A stretch of DNA of 64,000 bases from an uncultured bacterium (lineage in GTDB: Bacteria > Hydrogenedentota > Hydrogenedentia > Hydrogenedentales > CAILVY01), in NCBI GenBank assembly GCA_937951485.1, contig CALEDJ010000005.1, forward strand, positions 62,001 through 126,000. Direction: 5' to 3'. Below the pieces are notes generated by a model, which saw nothing but the letters and a program-made list of their open reading frames with translations, was not told the DNA's origin and searched no databases. Each line of letters starts with the position of its first letter. The first letter of the stretch is position 1. Below are positions 44,318 through 52,244 of the stretch, piece by piece. A program made the position numbers and the translations under genes.

Positions 44318-45754
44318 TTATGCTTCTTGGGCGGCGGCGGTTTCTTCAACAGGCGCTGCTTGCGGTCCCATGAGGTATTCATGGATGGACTTGGCGGCGA
44401 TGCGGCCCTGTCCCATAGCGCTGATGACGGTGGCGGCGCCGGAGACGATGTCGCCGCCGGCGAAGACGCCGGGCACGGCCGTCGCCATGGTATTCTCATC
44501 CACGACGATGGTGCCGTGTCTGGTGGTTTCCAGCCCGGGCATGGTCTGGGGAATCAGCGGGTTGGGTTTGTTGCCGATGGCGACGATGACGGTGTCCACA
44601 TCGAGGATGAATTCCGAACCTTTTACGGGAATCGGCCGTCGGCGTCCGGAGGAATCCGGTTCGCCCAATTCCATCTTGATGCACTCCATGCCGATGACCC
44701 GATGACGCTCATCGCCGATAATGCGGGTGGGGTTGTTGAGGAGCATCATCTTGACGCCCTCTTCTTCGGCATGGTGGATTTCCTCGGCGCGGGCCGGCAT
44801 CTGTTCTCGGGCGCGACGATAGACAATGGTGACATCGCCGCCAAGGCGCAGGGCGGTGCGCGCTGCGTCCATGGCGACATTGCCGCCGCCGATCACGGCG
44901 ACACGGCTGCGCTTGATGGGCGGGGTGTCGTACTTGGGGAACAGGTACGCCTTCATCAGGTTGGAGCGGGTCAGATATTCATTGGCGGAATAGACGCCGA
45001 CCAGGTTTTCACCGGGTATGCCCATGAACGAAGGCAGTCCCGCGCCGGAGCCGATGAAAACTGCATCGTAGCCTTCCTCCTCCATCAATTCGCGGACGGT
45101 GGCGTTGCGGCCCACGACGAAGTCCATCACGAATTCCACGCCCATCCGTTCGAGGAAATGCACTTCCGCATACACGATTTCCTTGGGCAGGCGGAATTCC
45201 GGAATGCCATAGGTGAGCACGCCGCCGGGGGCCTGCAATGCTTCAAACACCGTCACCTCATGGCCCAGGCGAATCAGGTCGCCGGCGACAGTGAGGCCGG
45301 CGGGTCCCGCGCCCACGACCGCGACACGCTTGCCGGTTTTGGGCGGCAGTTCCGGCAGTTCAATGTTGCCGGAGGCGCGTTCATAATCCGCCACGAAGCG
45401 CTCAAGCCGGCCGATGGCGACCGGTTCGCCCTTCACGCCGAGGATGCACTTGATCTCGCATTGTTCCTCCTGCGGACAGACCCGCCCGCAGACCGCCGGC
45501 AGCGCGTTCTGCTCCTTGAGTTTGTGGGCCGCCTCGATGAATCGGCCTTCCTGCACCAGACTGATGAATCCCGGAATATCCACATGCACGGGGCATCCCG
45601 CAACGCAGCCGGGTTTCTTGCATTTCATGCACCTGTTGGCTTCAATGATGGCCGTTTCCGGCGTGTAGCCGTAGGGCACTTCGTCAAAATTTCGGGCGCG
45701 GTCCTCCGGCGCTTGTTCCGGCATCGGCTGTCTCGGCACTTTTTCCTTTGGCAT
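44318..45754 (-). CDS. GltD/NfnB-like NADPH-binding flavoprotein
   Basis: 478 residues from the ATG at 45754 (CGGAAG upstream). The N-terminal iron-sulfur domain has CMKCKKPGCVAGCPVHVDIP and VCGRVCPQEEQCEIKCILG. The FAD site is VAVVGAGPAGLTVAGDLI, and the NAD(P)H site VAVIGGGNVAMDAARTALRL is followed by VYRRAREQMPA, whose Arg pair typically binds NADPH phosphate. Relatives are glutamate synthase beta subunit, SudA and NfnB, the bifurcating FAD subunit of Nfn. The neighbouring protein ends in an NfnA domain, so NfnB is favoured over glutamate synthase; no gltB is present. Last gene of the operon, 129 bp after the NuoG::NfnA gene. Confidence 0.88.
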   Translation of the reverse strand: MPKEKVPRQPMPEQAPEDRARNFDEVPYGYTPETAIIEANRCMKCKKPGCVAGCPVHVDIPGFISLVQEGRFIEAAHKLKEQNALPAVCGRVCPQEEQCEIKCILGVKGEPVAIGRLERFVADYERASGNIELPELPPKTGKRVAVVGAGPAGLTVAGDLIRLGHEVTVFEALQAPGGVLTYGIPEFRLPKEIVYAEVHFLERMGVEFVMDFVVGRNATVRELMEEEGYDAVFIGSGAGLPSFMGIPGENLVGVYSANEYLTRSNLMKAYLFPKYDTPPIKRSRVAVIGGGNVAMDAARTALRLGGDVTIVYRRAREQMPARAEEIHHAEEEGVKMMLLNNPTRIIGDERHRVIGMECIKMELGEPDSSGRRRPIPVKGSEFILDVDTVIVAIGNKPNPLIPQTMPGLETTRHGTIVVDENTMATAVPGVFAGGDIVSGAATVISAMGQGRIAAKSIHEYLMGPQAAPVEETAAAQEA

Positions 45755-45883
45755 GCTTCCGTTCCCTGATAAAACCTCACAGGGTGCGTGCAGCAAAGCG
45801 GCACCCACCATCGCGCTGTATTTGTCTTTATCCGGCGGTGGGTTCCATGCCGCATCGCGACATTCCACCCACCGTGCTTTGTG

Positions 45884-48388
45884 TTATTTGCATGAGCAGG
45901 CATGCCCGCCGCCGTGGTGGGCGGCGGCAACAACCGGCTCGGTGCGTCCTATAGACTGAATCTCCGCTGCGCTATATGCCACGCGGCGATCGCGGACCTC
46001 CTCCCAATCCACCAGGTGACCATCAAAGAAGGGGCCGTCCACGCAGGCGAATTTCGTTTCCTCGCCCACCGACACGCGGCATGCACCGCACATGCCGGTG
46101 CCGTCGAGCATGATCGGATTGAGCGCCACGAAGGTCTTCACGCCGTGCGGCTGGGTTTCTTGCGCGGTCAGCATCATCATGAACGGACACCCGATGGCGA
46201 CCACGCAATCCAGTTTCCGTCCGTCCTGAAGCATCTTGCCGATGTAATCCACGGCATGGCCGCGGAAACTGTGGGACCCGTCAATGGTGGTCTGCATGAA
46301 TTCATCGGCGATTCCGGCGAGTTTGTCGCTGTAGTAGGCGAGATAGTGGCTGCGCGCCTCGACCACGGCAATCACATGGTTGCCGGCGTCCTTCATGGCG
46401 CGCGCGATCGGCAGGATGCCGCCGACGCCGTAACAGCCGCCCGCAAGCGCCACCGTGCCGTAGTGTTGAATCTCCAGCGGAATGCCCAGCGGCCCCACGA
46501 CGTGCGCAAGGGCGTCGCCGGCGGATTTCAGGACAAGTTTGCGGCTGGACTGTCCCATCTCCTGCACGACCAACGTAATCGTGCCGCGTGCCACATCCCA
46601 ATCGCACAGGGTATAAGGCACGCGCTCGGAATTCTCGTCCACCATGACAATGACGAACTGGCCGGCCTTTGCCTTGCGCGCGATATGCGGCGCGTGGATG
46701 ACAATCTCGTGGTTGTTGGGCGCGATCTCGCTTTTCTCAAGAATCTCGAATTTTCCTGCGGCACGCGGCGCTTGCGCTGTCGCCGCGACCACAGCGGCGG
46801 GCGCGGCGCCGTTCAGAGGCAGGTTCTTCAGTCCCAGCACCTTCTCCGCGATGTCATGGCCGCGGAAATGGGTGCGGCGCTCTCTGGGGTCTCGGGCGGC
46901 CGCCGGGGCTTCCTCGCGCGCTATCCACAGGGCGGCTTCGGCGACGCCGGCCTCCAGGGCAATCTCGCGCGCCGATTCGTAGAGGAATCCGTTCGCGCCC
47001 ATCGCACGGGCCAACCCGCACACGATTTCCCAGTCCGGGCGCGCCTGCCCCGGCGGGGTGCATGCCCTGCGCAGCGGCCGCGGCGCACCCGCGCGATCGG
47101 CCGCCGTGCCCTCGATTTCCGCAAACACGGCGGCGGGAAGGACGATGTCCGCCCGTTCGCTCAGCGGCGAAGGATAACAATCCTGCACAAGGAGCAGTTC
47201 CAGCCCCGCGACCGCCTCGTCATCCGCGAACGCGCCGGTGAAACAGGCGGCCTTGACGCCATCGGGCAGGGTGACATGTGCTTCTCCGCGCGCGTCGGGT
47301 GTCAGTTCGATGAAATGCTCTGACTGCATCACTTCGCGGGTGAATTTCCGGAAGACGTGCCGGTCTTCGAGCGTACTGGTGGTGTCGCATACGAATGCGA
47401 ACGCGGAACCGACATAGGGCTGCAATCGCGCCGCCGCCGTTTCCAGCGCCGCATCCCATTCATGCTCGCGCAGCACCTTGCCGACGCGCACATGCGGCAT
47501 GCGCAGGCGGTCCGTGCCGTTGAGAAACTCCGCCAAGGCAAAGCGCCCCAGCACACACACCGGCACACCCGCGTTTACCGCGTGGGCACTGACGAGTTTT
47601 CCGTCCGTGGCCAGTGCGTTGAGGGCGCATGCGGCGTCACAGAAAATGCATGTGGTTTCGACGGCGCTGTCCGGTTTGCCGTACCACTTGGCGTAGCGGT
47701 CGGCGAGGGTGCCGGTGGGGCAGACATCCACGCAGGAGCCGCAGAAACGGCATCCGGCCTCGAGGAGGCTGCGGCCAAAGGCTTCGCCGATTTTCGTGGC
47801 GCTGCTGCGACCCACGAAATCAATCACGCTCGCGCCGTGCTGGTGCTTGCAGATGCGCACGCAGCGCCCGCACAGGATGCAGAGATTCAAATCGCGGTCA
47901 ATAAACGGATTGTCGCGTTCGAGGGGGCGCTGATGATACATGGGCGGCACCGGCAGATGGCAGAAGCCGAGTTCCTCCGAAAGGCGGCGCACCTCGCACA
48001 CTTCTTTGTTGTTGCAGGTATGGCAACCGGTGGTGCGGCCCGCTTTTTCCGATGCGGGCCGGAATTGGTCGCAGAGTTCACGCTTCGCGCAGACCAGGCA
48101 CGCGCTGGGATGCTCAATCATCATCAGGGCGAGGGTGTTGCGGCGCAATTCCTGCAGGGCCGGGGTATTGGTGCGGACCGTCATGCCCGCCGCCGCCGGC
48201 GTGGTGCAGGAAGTGGGAAATCCGCGCATGCCCTCGATTTCCACCAGGCACATGCGGCATGCGCCGAAAGGCGGCAGGCTCGGATGTGTGCACAAATGCG
48301 GGATTTCGATCCCGTGCCGTAGGGCGCACTGCAAGATCGTCTCACCCGCTTCGGCGGTTACCTGTTTTCCGTCAATCACAAGTTCCAT
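45884..48388 (-). CDS. NuoG::NfnA fusion, iron-sulfur and FAD/NAD(P) electron-transfer subunit
   Basis: 834 residues from the ATG at 48388 (GAGGAC 9 nt upstream). N-terminal NuoG: [2Fe-2S] Cys33, 44, 47, 61; His-Cys [4Fe-4S] His93, Cys97, 100, 106; then Cys122, 125 and 131; two ferredoxin clusters at Cys170-180 and Cys213-223. A shortened molybdopterin-oxidoreductase-like domain follows (TTCIFCDAACAL; RADIVLPAAVFAEIEGT) with no catalytic Sec/Cys site. From about residue 555 an NfnA/DHODB-type module begins: FVIVMVDENSERVPYTLCDW, VALAGGCYGVGGILPIARAM and the [2Fe-2S] site LDGTGMCGACRVSVG...CVDGP. This links a complex I-like iron-sulfur wire to the Nfn NAD(H)-side subunit in one chain. Soluble, no membrane segment. 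Confidence 0.88.
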   Translation of the reverse strand: MELVIDGKQVTAEAGETILQCALRHGIEIPHLCTHPSLPPFGACRMCLVEIEGMRGFPTSCTTPAAAGMTVRTNTPALQELRRNTLALMMIEHPSACLVCAKRELCDQFRPASEKAGRTTGCHTCNNKEVCEVRRLSEELGFCHLPVPPMYHQRPLERDNPFIDRDLNLCILCGRCVRICKHQHGASVIDFVGRSSATKIGEAFGRSLLEAGCRFCGSCVDVCPTGTLADRYAKWYGKPDSAVETTCIFCDAACALNALATDGKLVSAHAVNAGVPVCVLGRFALAEFLNGTDRLRMPHVRVGKVLREHEWDAALETAAARLQPYVGSAFAFVCDTTSTLEDRHVFRKFTREVMQSEHFIELTPDARGEAHVTLPDGVKAACFTGAFADDEAVAGLELLLVQDCYPSPLSERADIVLPAAVFAEIEGTAADRAGAPRPLRRACTPPGQARPDWEIVCGLARAMGANGFLYESAREIALEAGVAEAALWIAREEAPAAARDPRERRTHFRGHDIAEKVLGLKNLPLNGAAPAAVVAATAQAPRAAGKFEILEKSEIAPNNHEIVIHAPHIARKAKAGQFVIVMVDENSERVPYTLCDWDVARGTITLVVQEMGQSSRKLVLKSAGDALAHVVGPLGIPLEIQHYGTVALAGGCYGVGGILPIARAMKDAGNHVIAVVEARSHYLAYYSDKLAGIADEFMQTTIDGSHSFRGHAVDYIGKMLQDGRKLDCVVAIGCPFMMMLTAQETQPHGVKTFVALNPIMLDGTGMCGACRVSVGEETKFACVDGPFFDGHLVDWEEVRDRRVAYSAAEIQSIGRTEPVVAAAHHGGGHACSCK

Positions 48389-48472
48389 ACGCGCCAAGTC
48401 CTCTATGTCACCGCTTCGACTGCATCGGCAGCCGGTCCATTTCCACGAATTGCGCCTTTTTTCGGCCGCCTG

Positions 48473-51400
48473 TCATTTGCTTGCACAGTAATCGCAGCGC
48501 AGGCATCGCAGCGCCTCGCAAATGGCTTTGGTTTCCTCAAGCGGCAGTTCCACTTCCTCAAATGACCCCACACGCGCCGCGACCGGCAATAACTCCGGTT
48601 CCGCCCGGGGTGTCATCGCCGGTTCTGCAAGCGGGTCGAACGCCGTATCCACCATGGGCTGATCGCGCCAGAATGCATGCTCCTCGCCCGTAAGATACGC
48701 GTCAATGCCGACAGCGGCGCGCTCCCCCGCGCCGATGGCGTCAACCACCGACGCCGGGCCGGTGACGGCGTCGCCACCTGAGAACACCCATGGGACGCTG
48801 CATTGTCCTGAGTGGGGATCAACCTCCAGGAATCCGGAGGAATTCGCCCTGATTTCGACGCCGTCGCAGCAGGCCGCCACGTCAAGTTTCTGGCCGATGG
48901 CGGCAATCACCTGGTCCAGTTCCACGTCGAACACGGCGTCCTCCAGCGGCTTGGGGCGGCGGCGTCCGCTCAGGTCGTAGCCGCCCAGCGTCATGCGCCG
49001 ACAACGCAATCCAACAACCTGAGCATTGGCGGTCAAGACCTCGACAGGCGCTACAAGCGTCCACAACCGCACGCCTTCGCGTTCCGCTTCCGCGATTTCC
49101 TCTTCATAGGCGGGCATCTCGTCACGGGTGCGCCGATACACAATGGTCACTTCCTGTGCACCCAGCCTGATGGCGGTGCGCGCGGCGTCCACCGCCGCGT
49201 TGCCGCCGCCGATCACCGCCACGCGTTTGGCCACGCGCGCGGTTCCCGTCATGTTGTACTCGCGCAGGAAACGCAGCGCGTCGAGAACGCCCTCCGCATC
49301 GTCGCCGGGAATGCCCAATGCCGCGCCCTTGGGCGCGCCCAATCCCAGGAAGACCGCCTCATATCCCTTTTCGCGCAGCGATTGCAGGGTGAAATCCGCG
49401 CCCAGCCGTTTGTTTGTTTCAATCGTGACGCCCAAGCGGCGGATCATGTCTATCTCGCGGTTCAGTTCTTCGCGTGGCAGCCGGTACGCCGGAATGGTCT
49501 GCACAAGCATGCCGCCGGGGGCGGATTCCGCCTCGAACACGACGGGTTTGTAGCCGAGCCGCGCCAGGAAATACGCACAACTCAACCCCGCCGGCCCCGC
49601 GCCGATGATGGCGACTTTGCGTGCGGCGTTGGCGGGGTTTTCGCGCACCTCGGGCACTTGAATCTGCTTTTCCTGTTCGACCATGAAGCGCTTCACGCCG
49701 CGGATGGATACAGGCGCATCGAGTGCTGCGCGCCGGCATTTGTCTTCGCAGGGATGGAAGCACACACGGGCGCACACCGACGCAAACGGGTTGCGTTCGC
49801 GGTGCACACGAAGCGCCTCGTCATAGCGTTTTTCTCCGACCAGCGACACGAAGCCTGGGATGTACACCCCCGCCGGGCACCCGCACATGCACGGAGCGCG
49901 CACGAGCGCCGGGCAGACGCCCGCCGGACACTGCTTTTCCTTGATATGCGCTTCGTATTCTTCCCGGAAATTTCTCAGCGTGGTCAGCACGGGATTGGCG
50001 GCCGTCTGGCCGAGGCCGCACAGCGAACCGTTCTTCACCGTATGGGCCAGGGTCTCCAGCGTATCCAAATCCGACATCTCGCCTTTGCCTTCGGCAATGC
50101 GGGTCAGAATGGCGAGCATGGCGCGGGTGCCGACGCGACATGGCGGGCATTTGCCGCATGATTCATTCTGGGTGAAGGTCAGGAAGTAGCGGGCAAGGTC
50201 CACCACGCAGGTGTCGGCGTCGAGGACAATCATGCCGCCCGACCCCATGATGCTGCCTTCCCTGGCGAGCGCCTCATAGTCCACGGGCAGGTCCATCTTC
50301 CAGGCGGGGATGCAGCCCCCGGAGGGGCCGCCGGTCTGCACGGCCTTCAGCGGTTTGCCGGAAGAGGTGCCGCCGCCGATGTCGTAAATAATGTCAAGCA
50401 GTGTCATGCCCAACGGCACTTCGATCAGGCCGGTGCGGTTCACCTTGCCGGCGAGCGCGAAGGTCTTGGTGCCTTTACTGCCCTCGCTGCCGTATTTGGC
50501 ATACCACGCAGCCCCGTTGTTGAGGATCAAAGGCAGATTGCCCAATGTTTCAACGTTCTGAATCACCGTCGGCTTGCCCCAAAGTCCGCTGACCGCGGGG
50601 AACGGCGGCCGCGGACGCGGCATGCCGCGCCTGCCCTCGATGGACGCGATCAACGCGGTCTCTTCGCCGCACACAAAGGCCCCTGCGCCCTTCTTAATCG
50701 CAATATCGAAGGAAAAGCCCGAACCCAGGATGTTCTCGCCGAGCAGGCCCAGTTCGCGCATCTGCGCGATGGCCTTCTCCAGGCGGCGGATAGCCAGCGG
50801 ATATTCGGCCCGGCAATATACGTAGCCGTGGGTGGATCCCATGGCGAATCCGGCGATGAGCATGCCTTCAAGCACCGCATGCGGATCGCCTTCCAGCAGC
50901 GAGCGGTTCATGAATGCGCCCGGGTCGCCCTCGTCGGCGTTGCAGATAAGATAGCGGATGTCACTGGGAACACTCCTGCAGAACTCCCATTTCTTGAACG
51001 TGGGGAATCCCGCGCCGCCGCGCCCTCGCAGCCCGGAGTTTTTCACTTCTTCGAGGGTTTTGTCCGGCCCCATTTCCAGGGCGCGCAGGAACCCGCGATA
51101 GCCGTCGCGGGCCAGATAATGATTCAGGTTCTCCGGGTCAATGATGCCGCAATTGCGCAGGATGCGCCGTACTTGGCGGTGGATGACGGGGTGCGCATCG
51201 AGATCGGCGATGCCGTCCACGGCGCCCGGCCCCATCTTGCCGAGCGCCCATTGCGCGCAGGGGTCGTTGCCCAGCACGTAGTTGTTGAAGATGGTCCTGA
51301 TTTCCTCGCCGCCGACATTGCCATAACACACGCGCGGGAGACCGGGCTTGTGCACGATGACCAGCGGTTCCAGAAAACACGGGCCGAGACAGCCGACCTC

Positions 51401-51583
51401 AACCACCCGCGCGCAGACGGCGCGCCGCGCGATTTCCTCTTCCAGCGATTGGAGCACATCCGCCGCGCCGGCCGCGCGCCCGCATGTGGCGGCGCCGACA
51501 AAAAACACCGGGCAATCGCTCTCTTCAAGTTGCTTCCATTCCGCAAGCGCTTCGCTGTAGCGTTGTTCCAACGGATTCATCAC
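48473..51583 (-). CDS. NuoF::GltD fusion, FMN/NADH and FAD/NADPH subunit
   Basis: 1036 residues. GTG 51583 and ATG 51580 both overlap the NuoE stop. Residues 1-110: thioredoxin-like ferredoxin (ATCGRAAGA, VGCLGPCFLEP). Residues 130-540: NuoF, with NADH/FMN motifs GLRGRGGAGFPTFKKW and NADEGDPGAFMNRSLLEGD, and the N3-type cluster ESCGKCPPCRVGT (about 473) plus SLCGLGQTAANP. KQCPAGVCPALV near 549 is the extension typical of bifurcating HydB/HndC proteins. There the chain turns into a complete GltD module in place of a two-cluster ferredoxin: APCMCGCPAGVYIPGF, VCARVCFHPCEDKCRR, VAIIGAGPAGLSCAYFLARL, VAVIGGGNAAVDAARTAIRL. The end LRCLRCDYC is an extra Cys group. Confidence 0.88.
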   Translation of the reverse strand: MMNPLEQRYSEALAEWKQLEESDCPVFFVGAATCGRAAGAADVLQSLEEEIARRAVCARVVEVGCLGPCFLEPLVIVHKPGLPRVCYGNVGGEEIRTIFNNYVLGNDPCAQWALGKMGPGAVDGIADLDAHPVIHRQVRRILRNCGIIDPENLNHYLARDGYRGFLRALEMGPDKTLEEVKNSGLRGRGGAGFPTFKKWEFCRSVPSDIRYLICNADEGDPGAFMNRSLLEGDPHAVLEGMLIAGFAMGSTHGYVYCRAEYPLAIRRLEKAIAQMRELGLLGENILGSGFSFDIAIKKGAGAFVCGEETALIASIEGRRGMPRPRPPFPAVSGLWGKPTVIQNVETLGNLPLILNNGAAWYAKYGSEGSKGTKTFALAGKVNRTGLIEVPLGMTLLDIIYDIGGGTSSGKPLKAVQTGGPSGGCIPAWKMDLPVDYEALAREGSIMGSGGMIVLDADTCVVDLARYFLTFTQNESCGKCPPCRVGTRAMLAILTRIAEGKGEMSDLDTLETLAHTVKNGSLCGLGQTAANPVLTTLRNFREEYEAHIKEKQCPAGVCPALVRAPCMCGCPAGVYIPGFVSLVGEKRYDEALRVHRERNPFASVCARVCFHPCEDKCRRAALDAPVSIRGVKRFMVEQEKQIQVPEVRENPANAARKVAIIGAGPAGLSCAYFLARLGYKPVVFEAESAPGGMLVQTIPAYRLPREELNREIDMIRRLGVTIETNKRLGADFTLQSLREKGYEAVFLGLGAPKGAALGIPGDDAEGVLDALRFLREYNMTGTARVAKRVAVIGGGNAAVDAARTAIRLGAQEVTIVYRRTRDEMPAYEEEIAEAEREGVRLWTLVAPVEVLTANAQVVGLRCRRMTLGGYDLSGRRRPKPLEDAVFDVELDQVIAAIGQKLDVAACCDGVEIRANSSGFLEVDPHSGQCSVPWVFSGGDAVTGPASVVDAIGAGERAAVGIDAYLTGEEHAFWRDQPMVDTAFDPLAEPAMTPRAEPELLPVAARVGSFEEVELPLEETKAICEALRCLRCDYCASK

Positions 51584-52074
51584 TGTGATTCCTGTTCGCC
51601 TGAGTATTCATTCAAAATGGCCGGGAGTTTCTTCGGGGAGACCCGCGCATACACATGCCCGTCAACGGATACCACCGGCGCAAGCGCGCAACAGCCAAGG
51701 CACGCCACGCGCCCCAGTTCAAATCGGCCGTCCGGCGTCATCTCCCCCGCCTTGACGTCGAGCAGTTGCTGCAATTCCGCCATGTTCTGCGCGCCGCCGC
51801 GCACATGGCAGGCCGTCCCCTGGCAGACGTGAATGGTGTGCTCGGCGGGCGGCGTGAATCGAAACTGCGCGTAGAACGTGGCCACCCCGTAGATTTCATT
51901 GGCGGAAATGCCCAGCCATTGTTCCAGCGCATCCAAGGCTTCCGGGCGCAGATACCCGTAGCGGTCCTGTATGTCCTGCAAGAGCGGGATTACGCTCCCT
52001 TGGTTTCGTGGATATCGGGACAGAATGTCCGAGATGTCCACATCGCATTCGCTTGCCAGTGTCGCTTCAGCCAT
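51580..52074 (-). CDS. NuoE-like [2Fe-2S] subunit
   Basis: 164 residues, thioredoxin-like fold with the four [2Fe-2S] ligands Cys84, Cys89, Cys125 and Cys129 (HVCQGTACHVRGG, VACLGCCALAPVV). The helical N-terminus (ILSRYPRNQGSVIPLLQDIQ) is typical for NuoE/HydC. In bifurcating complexes it pairs with the NuoF FMN domain. GGAG stands 9 nt before the ATG. First gene of a four-gene operon, coupled to NuoF::GltD by stop/start overlap. Confidence 0.92.
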   Translation of the reverse strand: MAEATLASECDVDISDILSRYPRNQGSVIPLLQDIQDRYGYLRPEALDALEQWLGISANEIYGVATFYAQFRFTPPAEHTIHVCQGTACHVRGGAQNMAELQQLLDVKAGEMTPDGRFELGRVACLGCCALAPVVSVDGHVYARVSPKKLPAILNEYSGEQESQ

Positions 52075-52215: not shown

Positions 52216-52244
52216 ATCATAACATGTTTGATGGGCGCAATCAA
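52216..52244 (-). promoter_or_regulatory. Sigma-70 promoter upstream of the nuoE operon
   Basis: Minus-strand TTGATT (52244-52239), a 17-nt spacer, TATGAT (52221-52216): four or five matches in each hexamer with ideal spacing. It reads straight into the intrinsic terminator, then nuoE. Confidence 0.65.

Follow-up and report, generated by a model that had tools for sequence, protein, structure and literature searches.

The window analysed here is a stretch of 64,000 nucleotides from an uncultured bacterium of the phylum Hydrogenedentota (GenBank assembly GCA_937951485.1, contig CALEDJ010000005.1, positions 62,001 to 126,000). At positions 52074-44318 of this window, contiguous and with intact frames, lie four genes that encode NuoE, a NuoF::GltD fusion, a NuoG::NfnA fusion and NfnB; all of them, and the features of the operon given below, are on the minus strand. 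We call this operon and its relatives Nfn-type. We propose that its products assemble into a single soluble complex, with a complete NfnAB wired through the NuoG chain to a NuoEF module for NADH that resembles HydBC and StnAB. The formation of the complex, the direction of electron flow and the overall reaction we infer from sequence, and we give about an even chance to the model taken as a whole, i.e., to transhydrogenation between the phosphorylated and non-phosphorylated nicotinamide adenine dinucleotides (NADPH:NAD+) linked to ferredoxin, with bifurcation at NfnB, the NAD site on NuoF and a connection between the two by way of NfnA and NuoG.

According to this model, NADPH would reduce the flavin adenine dinucleotide (FAD) of NfnB, the b-FAD, which would then bifurcate. 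Ferredoxin would receive the low-potential electron via the two [4Fe-4S] clusters of NfnB, and the high-potential electron would travel through the [2Fe-2S] cluster and the a-FAD of NfnA to the clusters of NuoG, the flavin mononucleotide (FMN) of NuoF and finally NAD+. With its NAD loop rebuilt, NfnA would not pass this electron straight to NAD+. The reaction would be reversible, so that NADH and reduced ferredoxin could yield NADPH, and the end module of NuoF, be it a ferredoxin domain or GltD, would serve as an extra port for ferredoxin or NADP(H) whose swap or decay is tolerated. The evolutionary form of this proposal is more tentative, and we regard it as possible rather than probable: the NAD site would have moved, with NfnA passing bifurcated high-potential electrons via a formate-dehydrogenase-derived NuoG to the distant NuoF flavin, and with the grafted GltD port decaying in sister lineages. 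An earlier note on this DNA had proposed that the operon balances NADH, NADPH and ferredoxin; judging by the conserved domains and motifs, a linkage of these three carriers is indeed most likely.

NfnB, NfnA and the NuoG chain

To judge from the motifs, the bifurcation determinants of the FAD type are carried by NfnB and not by the GltD on NuoF. It was shown that a Glu of NfnB is a ligand of the proximal cluster and that N5 of the bifurcating FAD is held by an Arg, while StnC has Lys for the Glu, a displaced Arg and a non-bifurcating FAD (PMC10482914). NfnB of the window (NfnL/GltA; 44318..45868, 516 amino acids as called, the true start likely being the ATG at about 45754, judged by homologue lengths) has the motifs RCx2Cx4Cx3CPV and GRVCPQExQCx3C with the Glu ligand and the N5-Arg, scores 632 bits against TIGR01316 (cut-off 472) and aligns with 4ylf_B at 3.7e-171. 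The Glu ligand E156 and the N5-Arg R226 are invariant in 28/28 relatives, and the NADPH Arg pair is kept. What the earlier note called a second GltD is a real gene, then, and it is a canonical bifurcating-type NfnB, unlike the non-bifurcating, StnC-type GltD on NuoF.

The NfnA domain (45953..46762; phmmer against P. furiosus NfnS, 1.1e-83) keeps the FAD barrel motif ERVPYT (ERxPxT) and the [2Fe-2S] motif DGTGMCGAC...CV. Its NAD-binding loop departs from the canonical one, GGG[VIL]G (or a close variant of it) followed by GP. Both motifs correspond in position to NAD-binding loops of the ferredoxin-NADP reductase (FNR) fold. The window protein has instead GGCYG, with C655 encoded at 46433..46435, and, in the second loop, GCP, with C737 encoded at 46187..46189. 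GGCYG occurs in all 37 NuoG-linked NfnAs, fused or separate and from three phyla, and in none of the 27 canonical ones; GC in place of GP is equally exclusive (35/35 linked NfnAs in which the region is present, 0/27 canonical). The [2Fe-2S] and FAD motifs are preserved. Most simply, linked NfnA would hand electrons to NuoG rather than to NAD, the binding of which it would have lost. The NAD loop of the small subunit of P. furiosus NfnII is likewise changed, and that enzyme does not use NAD; its high-potential acceptor is unknown (PMC8097209, PMC6085437).

The NuoG::NfnA fusion (45884..48397) is an 837-amino-acid protein in one intact frame. Its NuoG iron-sulfur part (47678..48397) has a [2Fe-2S] site (C36/C47/C50/C64), a His-Cys3 site (H96/C100/C103/C109), an extra C125/C128/C134 group and a dicluster (C173-C226), the ligands being invariant in 23/23 fused proteins. 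Behind it lies a truncated molybdopterin-domain remnant (46898..47677, residues ~241-500) with an N7-type cluster (C250/C253/C257/C281). The remnant lacks the segment with the catalytic selenocysteine or cysteine (Sec/Cys) of an FdsA-type formate dehydrogenase and is predicted to be inactive. The best alignments of the NuoG part are to formate dehydrogenase alpha subunits and to StnC. The earlier note had recognised the NuoG-like chain and the NfnA module correctly, but overlooked the remnant with its dead formate-dehydrogenase ancestry, as well as the altered NAD loop.

The catalytic Sec/Cys is kept in L148 (TGA-encoded, without NfnAB), L144 (Cys, with NfnAB), L009 and L100. None of the other NfnAB-linked NuoGs examined retains it: D, E, S or Y stands in its place in the five-gene operons, and in the fused proteins it is deleted. 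The first protein to branch off within the NuoG-linked clade (98/91) of the NfnA tree is that of L144, whose gene neighbours an intact formate dehydrogenase; the fused NfnAs, without exception, group in a single later clade (100/97). This branching order, together with the pattern of Sec/Cys loss, suggests a series that began with a formate dehydrogenase associated with NfnAB, continued with the loss of the formate site and led to the fusion, with the exchange of the NuoF end domain taking place after, or before, the latter. Because the fusion occurs in one clade nested among NuoG-linked NfnAs encoded by separate genes of five-gene operons, the gene-fusion argument points to a contact between NuoG and NfnA.

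Several related observations deserve mention. The C125/C128/C134 group (GCxxCxNxxxCE) is found in all linked NuoGs and in the formate dehydrogenases of L144 and L148 and is absent from L009 and L100. Nearly all fused NuoG::NfnA forms also have a CxC (C834/C836) at the C-terminus. L144:1-9192 encodes the intact formate dehydrogenase, NfnA and NfnB, divergent from NuoE and NuoF::GltD; it is possibly an NADP-linked bifurcating formate dehydrogenase and likely represents the ancestral arrangement. L148:7846-10602, from Planctomycetota, encodes NuoE, NuoF and a formate dehydrogenase whose catalytic selenocysteine codon is an in-frame TGA, and is likely an Fdh-Bfu.

The NuoEF core and its end module

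NuoE (BfuC; 51580..52074, 164 amino acids; Pfam PF01257, 1.8e-47) is a thioredoxin-like protein with one [2Fe-2S] cluster, as expected of a BfuC, and its four Cys (C84, C89, C125, C129) are invariant in 32/32 relatives. The BfuB-like NuoF::GltD fusion (48473..51583) combines PF01512, PF10589, PF14691 and PF07992 in a single 1036-amino-acid frame. Its NuoF core (49934..51148; phmmer against StnB 8oh5_B, 1.3e-197) holds the FMN/NAD site and clusters B1 and B2 and has the FMN, SLBB and NuoF [4Fe-4S] domains of a BfuB (PF01512, PF10531, PF10589). The [4Fe-4S] cluster B1 is bound by C476, C479, C482 and C522, and B2 by C459, H546 and, just beyond the core segment, C552 and C557. The B2 ligands and most B1 ligands are invariant in 32/32 relatives, C482 in 31/32.

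B2 is defined as three Cys and one His, with Cys or Thr as a fifth in bifurcating BfuBs (PMC9304861). That fifth position, equivalent to C476 of A. mobile HydB, is Cys in all 17 hydrogenase paralogues; it is Ala in the window NuoF and A, V or S in many orthologues. Because it varies while E156 and R226 of NfnB are invariant, selection appears to have been relaxed on the FMN-type centre of NuoF and upheld on the FAD-type centre of NfnB. The C-terminal ferredoxin domain with B3 and B4, kept in 13 orthologues, has given way to GltD in the window protein, which by its domains falls outside the Bfu definition, while the orthologues fit it. The NuoF cores of Nfn-type operons form one clade (100/99) that holds both the GltD and the ferredoxin-domain forms.

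These features bear on the alternative that the NuoEF FMN, together with B1 and B2, is the bifurcating centre, as in HydABC and Stn, and that NfnAB merely supplies electrons from NADPH via NuoG. The invariant FMN site, B1 and four main B2 ligands speak in its favour, as does the fact that the NuoF core is nearest to StnB and HydB; StnC, too, has a dead formate-dehydrogenase domain (PMC10482914). We consider this alternative unlikely, although it deserves serious attention, since NfnB retains the bifurcating Glu and Arg that are replaced or displaced in StnC, and since the window NuoF has both an Ala at the fifth B2 position and no B3/B4 domain. It is less probable still that two bifurcation centres, the NfnB b-FAD and the NuoF FMN with its iron-sulfur clusters, are both active in series. 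The ligands of both are largely intact, and stacked modules have a precedent in the HdrA and Bfu combination proposed for benzoyl-CoA reductase (PMC9304861), but the changes in NuoF just described count against this arrangement as well, and it would be thermodynamically redundant, both modules coupling the same three carriers.

The GltD module (48674..49918) consists of DPD-II diclusters and a FAD/NADPH fold and is exchanged for the ferredoxin domain at a single junction, directly after the B2 ligand C557. A displaced part of the DPD-II cluster motif, RCLRCDYC, is found at the C-terminus (48485..48508), where HMMER matches the tail with the RCxxC segment near the N-terminus of NfnB; the tail Cys C1027 and C1030 are kept in 9/9 proteins. 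The window module has the StnC-type Lys at the position of the proximal-cluster ligand and intact FAD and NADPH motifs. Five Nfn-type relatives have exchanged the Lys for Ala or Ser and, in the FAD motif, GGD for GGE; replacing the equivalent Lys of S. ovata StnC (K170A) severely reduced activity (PMC10482914). The ratio of GltD to NuoF-core divergence is 1.93 in Nfn-type operons versus 1.47 in hydrogenases, which means that GltD changes at a relatively higher rate in the former. Being interchangeable with the ferredoxin domain and decayed in five relatives, GltD on NuoF is by all appearances optional in Nfn-type operons. An AlphaFold2 model of NuoF::GltD (predicted local distance difference test score, pLDDT, 76.7; predicted template modelling score, pTM, 0.52) leaves the hinge at residues 550-571 unresolved and confirms merely the HydB/StnB-like and GltD folds.

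The GltDs of Nfn-type operons and of [FeFe]-hydrogenases form one clade (100/99), separate in the tree from the NuoF::GltD fusions of formate-dehydrogenase-type and short-NuoG operons. The trees are compatible both with a single gain of GltD by the Nfn-type NuoF and with its replacement by the ferredoxin domain. We rejected GltD on NuoF as the defining novelty of the operon, because a 2024 study had already described NuoF::GltD in [FeFe]-hydrogenases of Hydrogenedentota, as their sub-type I BfuB (PMC11406978), and because it swaps with a plain ferredoxin domain; as a bifurcating site it is unlikely, Lys replacing Glu as in StnC. The earlier note's idea that the operon merges two designs holds insofar as NfnAB and a HydBC/StnAB-like core are joined in a conserved soluble operon with many flavins and clusters. 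Its basis in two GltD-type flavin sites does not hold, the two not being equivalent.

The genome that contains the window has two further NuoF::GltD operons (L009:7275-13208 and L011:3334-8203), one with a formate-dehydrogenase-like subunit and the other with an [FeFe]-hydrogenase. A separate, widespread operon of NuoE, NuoF::GltD and a short NuoG of about 225-260 amino acids (L022-L030, L039, L042, L043) occurs in Planctomycetota, deltaproteobacterial lineages, Spirochaetota and one Thermoplasmatota metagenome-assembled genome, with no obvious third-substrate subunit.

Flanks, distribution and weighing of the model

Pfam and NCBIfam searches confirm every domain of the four proteins. NuoE and NuoF::GltD overlap by 4 bp and the remaining intergenic gaps are short; an MsrB gene lies downstream of the operon, and a zinc-ribbon gene, LeuD and LeuC lie upstream. 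A possible sigma-70-like promoter upstream of NuoE (52216..52244) is weak, the number of such hits being at chance level. Among the neighbours in the window there is no membrane Nuo gene, no H-cluster protein and no complete formate-dehydrogenase domain, in agreement with the earlier note. The genome of 4.55 Mb carries nine NuoF paralogues and seven Fe_hyd_lg_C proteins, the genes for the latter being on other contigs. A hidden hydrogenase or formate dehydrogenase is rejected, since Pfam finds no Fe_hyd_lg_C domain in NuoG, the formate site is gone and the flanks are clean. We also reject the possibility, raised in the earlier note, that the fusions are assembly or frameshift artefacts, because the four-gene layout, which the open reading frames support, recurs in independent genomes (L017, L019, L021, L032 and more relatives, as well as L131 from a second phylum).

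The search for the fusion pattern that the earlier note had proposed found NuoG::NfnA in 21/68 Hydrogenedentota genomes, a few copies being cut by contig ends; wherever the contig is long enough, NuoE and NuoF are upstream and NfnB is downstream. Nineteen other Hydrogenedentota genomes have canonical NfnB genes outside the operon, and the overlap is 0/68, where 5.9 is expected (P = 2e-4, uncorrected for kinship). This resembles the almost complete mutual exclusion of Stn and Nfn in acetogens (PMC7483475), and we count it in favour of the proposed model. The second phylum is the group of G073, the genome of L026 ('Deltaproteobacteria bacterium UBA1386'), in which 14/395 genomes gave strong matches. 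Two of them have full-length NuoG::NfnA: L131 with the exact layout of the window, including NuoF::GltD, and L132 with a ferredoxin-type NuoF beside the fusion. In about ten others the operon is an unfused NuoE-NuoF-NuoG-NfnA-NfnB set with a dead formate-dehydrogenase site. A search of 392 Planctomycetota genomes turned up a single selenocysteine formate dehydrogenase, which has no NfnAB (L148), and a search of 345 Spirochaetota genomes a single NuoG-NfnA-NfnB (L147).

That the operon simply encodes two enzymes, NfnAB and the NuoEFG-like protein, with a merely structural NuoG::NfnA fusion, is very improbable: unfused operons exist and in other organisms soluble NfnAB works by itself, but NuoG-linked NfnA bears its own signature before and after fusion, NuoG with no remaining catalytic site needs a partner, and the fused layout is kept in two phyla.

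Several points weigh against the model of a single NfnB-centred complex. The Bfu core retains FMN, B1 and all four main B2 ligands and may still bifurcate. A Cys in an FNR-type pocket does not necessarily prevent NAD from binding, and the AlphaFold2 model of NuoG::NfnA, built from five sequences, has a pLDDT of 48 and is unusable, so the distance between NfnA and NuoG cannot be read from it. The mutual exclusion with canonical Nfn tracks clades, the genomes not being independent, and G073 holds both the operon-type and a canonical Nfn. Finally, L147 (6946-10008) encodes NuoG-NfnA-NfnB without adjacent NuoEF, the sequence past NfnB being masked, and NuoEF may therefore not be the sole partner of these three.

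Relation to known transhydrogenases

To our knowledge, the known ferredoxin-linked transhydrogenases are either Nfn, with bifurcation at FAD, or Stn, with bifurcation in a HydBC-like core. The Nfn-type family would physically unite the two kinds and allow one to ask which of the flavins is the bifurcating one in an enzyme that combines both designs. It also offers a candidate answer to the question of the high-potential acceptor of an Nfn that does not reduce NAD, and its sequences keep a record of how the formate site was lost, the NfnA NAD site was apparently rebuilt and the ferredoxin domain was swapped for GltD. For Hydrogenedentota, a phylum without cultured representatives (PMC11406978), it would add a redox-balancing complex to the repertoire.

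We found no published description of a NuoG-linked NfnAB operon in the open-access literature, which leaves its absence unproven. The nearest mention is that of a formate dehydrogenase beside nfnB in Seep-SRB1g (PMC10553843), an arrangement shared with L144; it concerns the gene neighbourhood only and does not describe NuoEF, the NfnA fusion or the loss of the formate site. The sub-type I BfuABC [FeFe]-hydrogenase of Hydrogenedentota (PMC11406978) shares NuoF::GltD, with DPD-II and FAD replacing B3/B4, but has an H-cluster BfuA, which the operon lacks, and neither NfnA nor NfnB. P. furiosus NfnII (Xfn) is an NfnAB-like pair for which no NuoG or NuoEF partner has been described.

With NfnAB proper (NfnI of T. 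maritima and P. furiosus) the operon shares the Glu ligand, the N5-Arg and the NADPH Arg pair of NfnB and the ERxPxT and DGTGMCGxC [2Fe-2S] motifs of NfnA; it differs in that NfnA is fused to NuoG, has GGCYG/GC instead of GGGVG/GP and is co-encoded with NuoEF. With Stn, or Nfn-Bfu type 1 (S. ovata StnABC; NfnABC of T. sibiricus and C. saccharolyticus), it shares NuoE, NuoF and a NuoG with a dead formate-dehydrogenase domain, and the coupling of NADPH, NADH and ferredoxin by Stn is predicted for it as well. However, Stn has a non-bifurcating GltD with a Lys ligand inserted in NuoG and no NfnA, whereas here NuoG bears a C-terminal NfnA and no inserted GltD, a complete bifurcating-type NfnAB is attached, and the StnC-like GltD is on NuoF. 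By its sequence, the operon would work like Nfn and Stn and yet is a plain member of neither, and it is not an Stn. With NuoF::GltD already known, what is new and conserved in it is the combination of NuoG, NfnA and NfnB, a full Nfn placed on a Bfu-like core.

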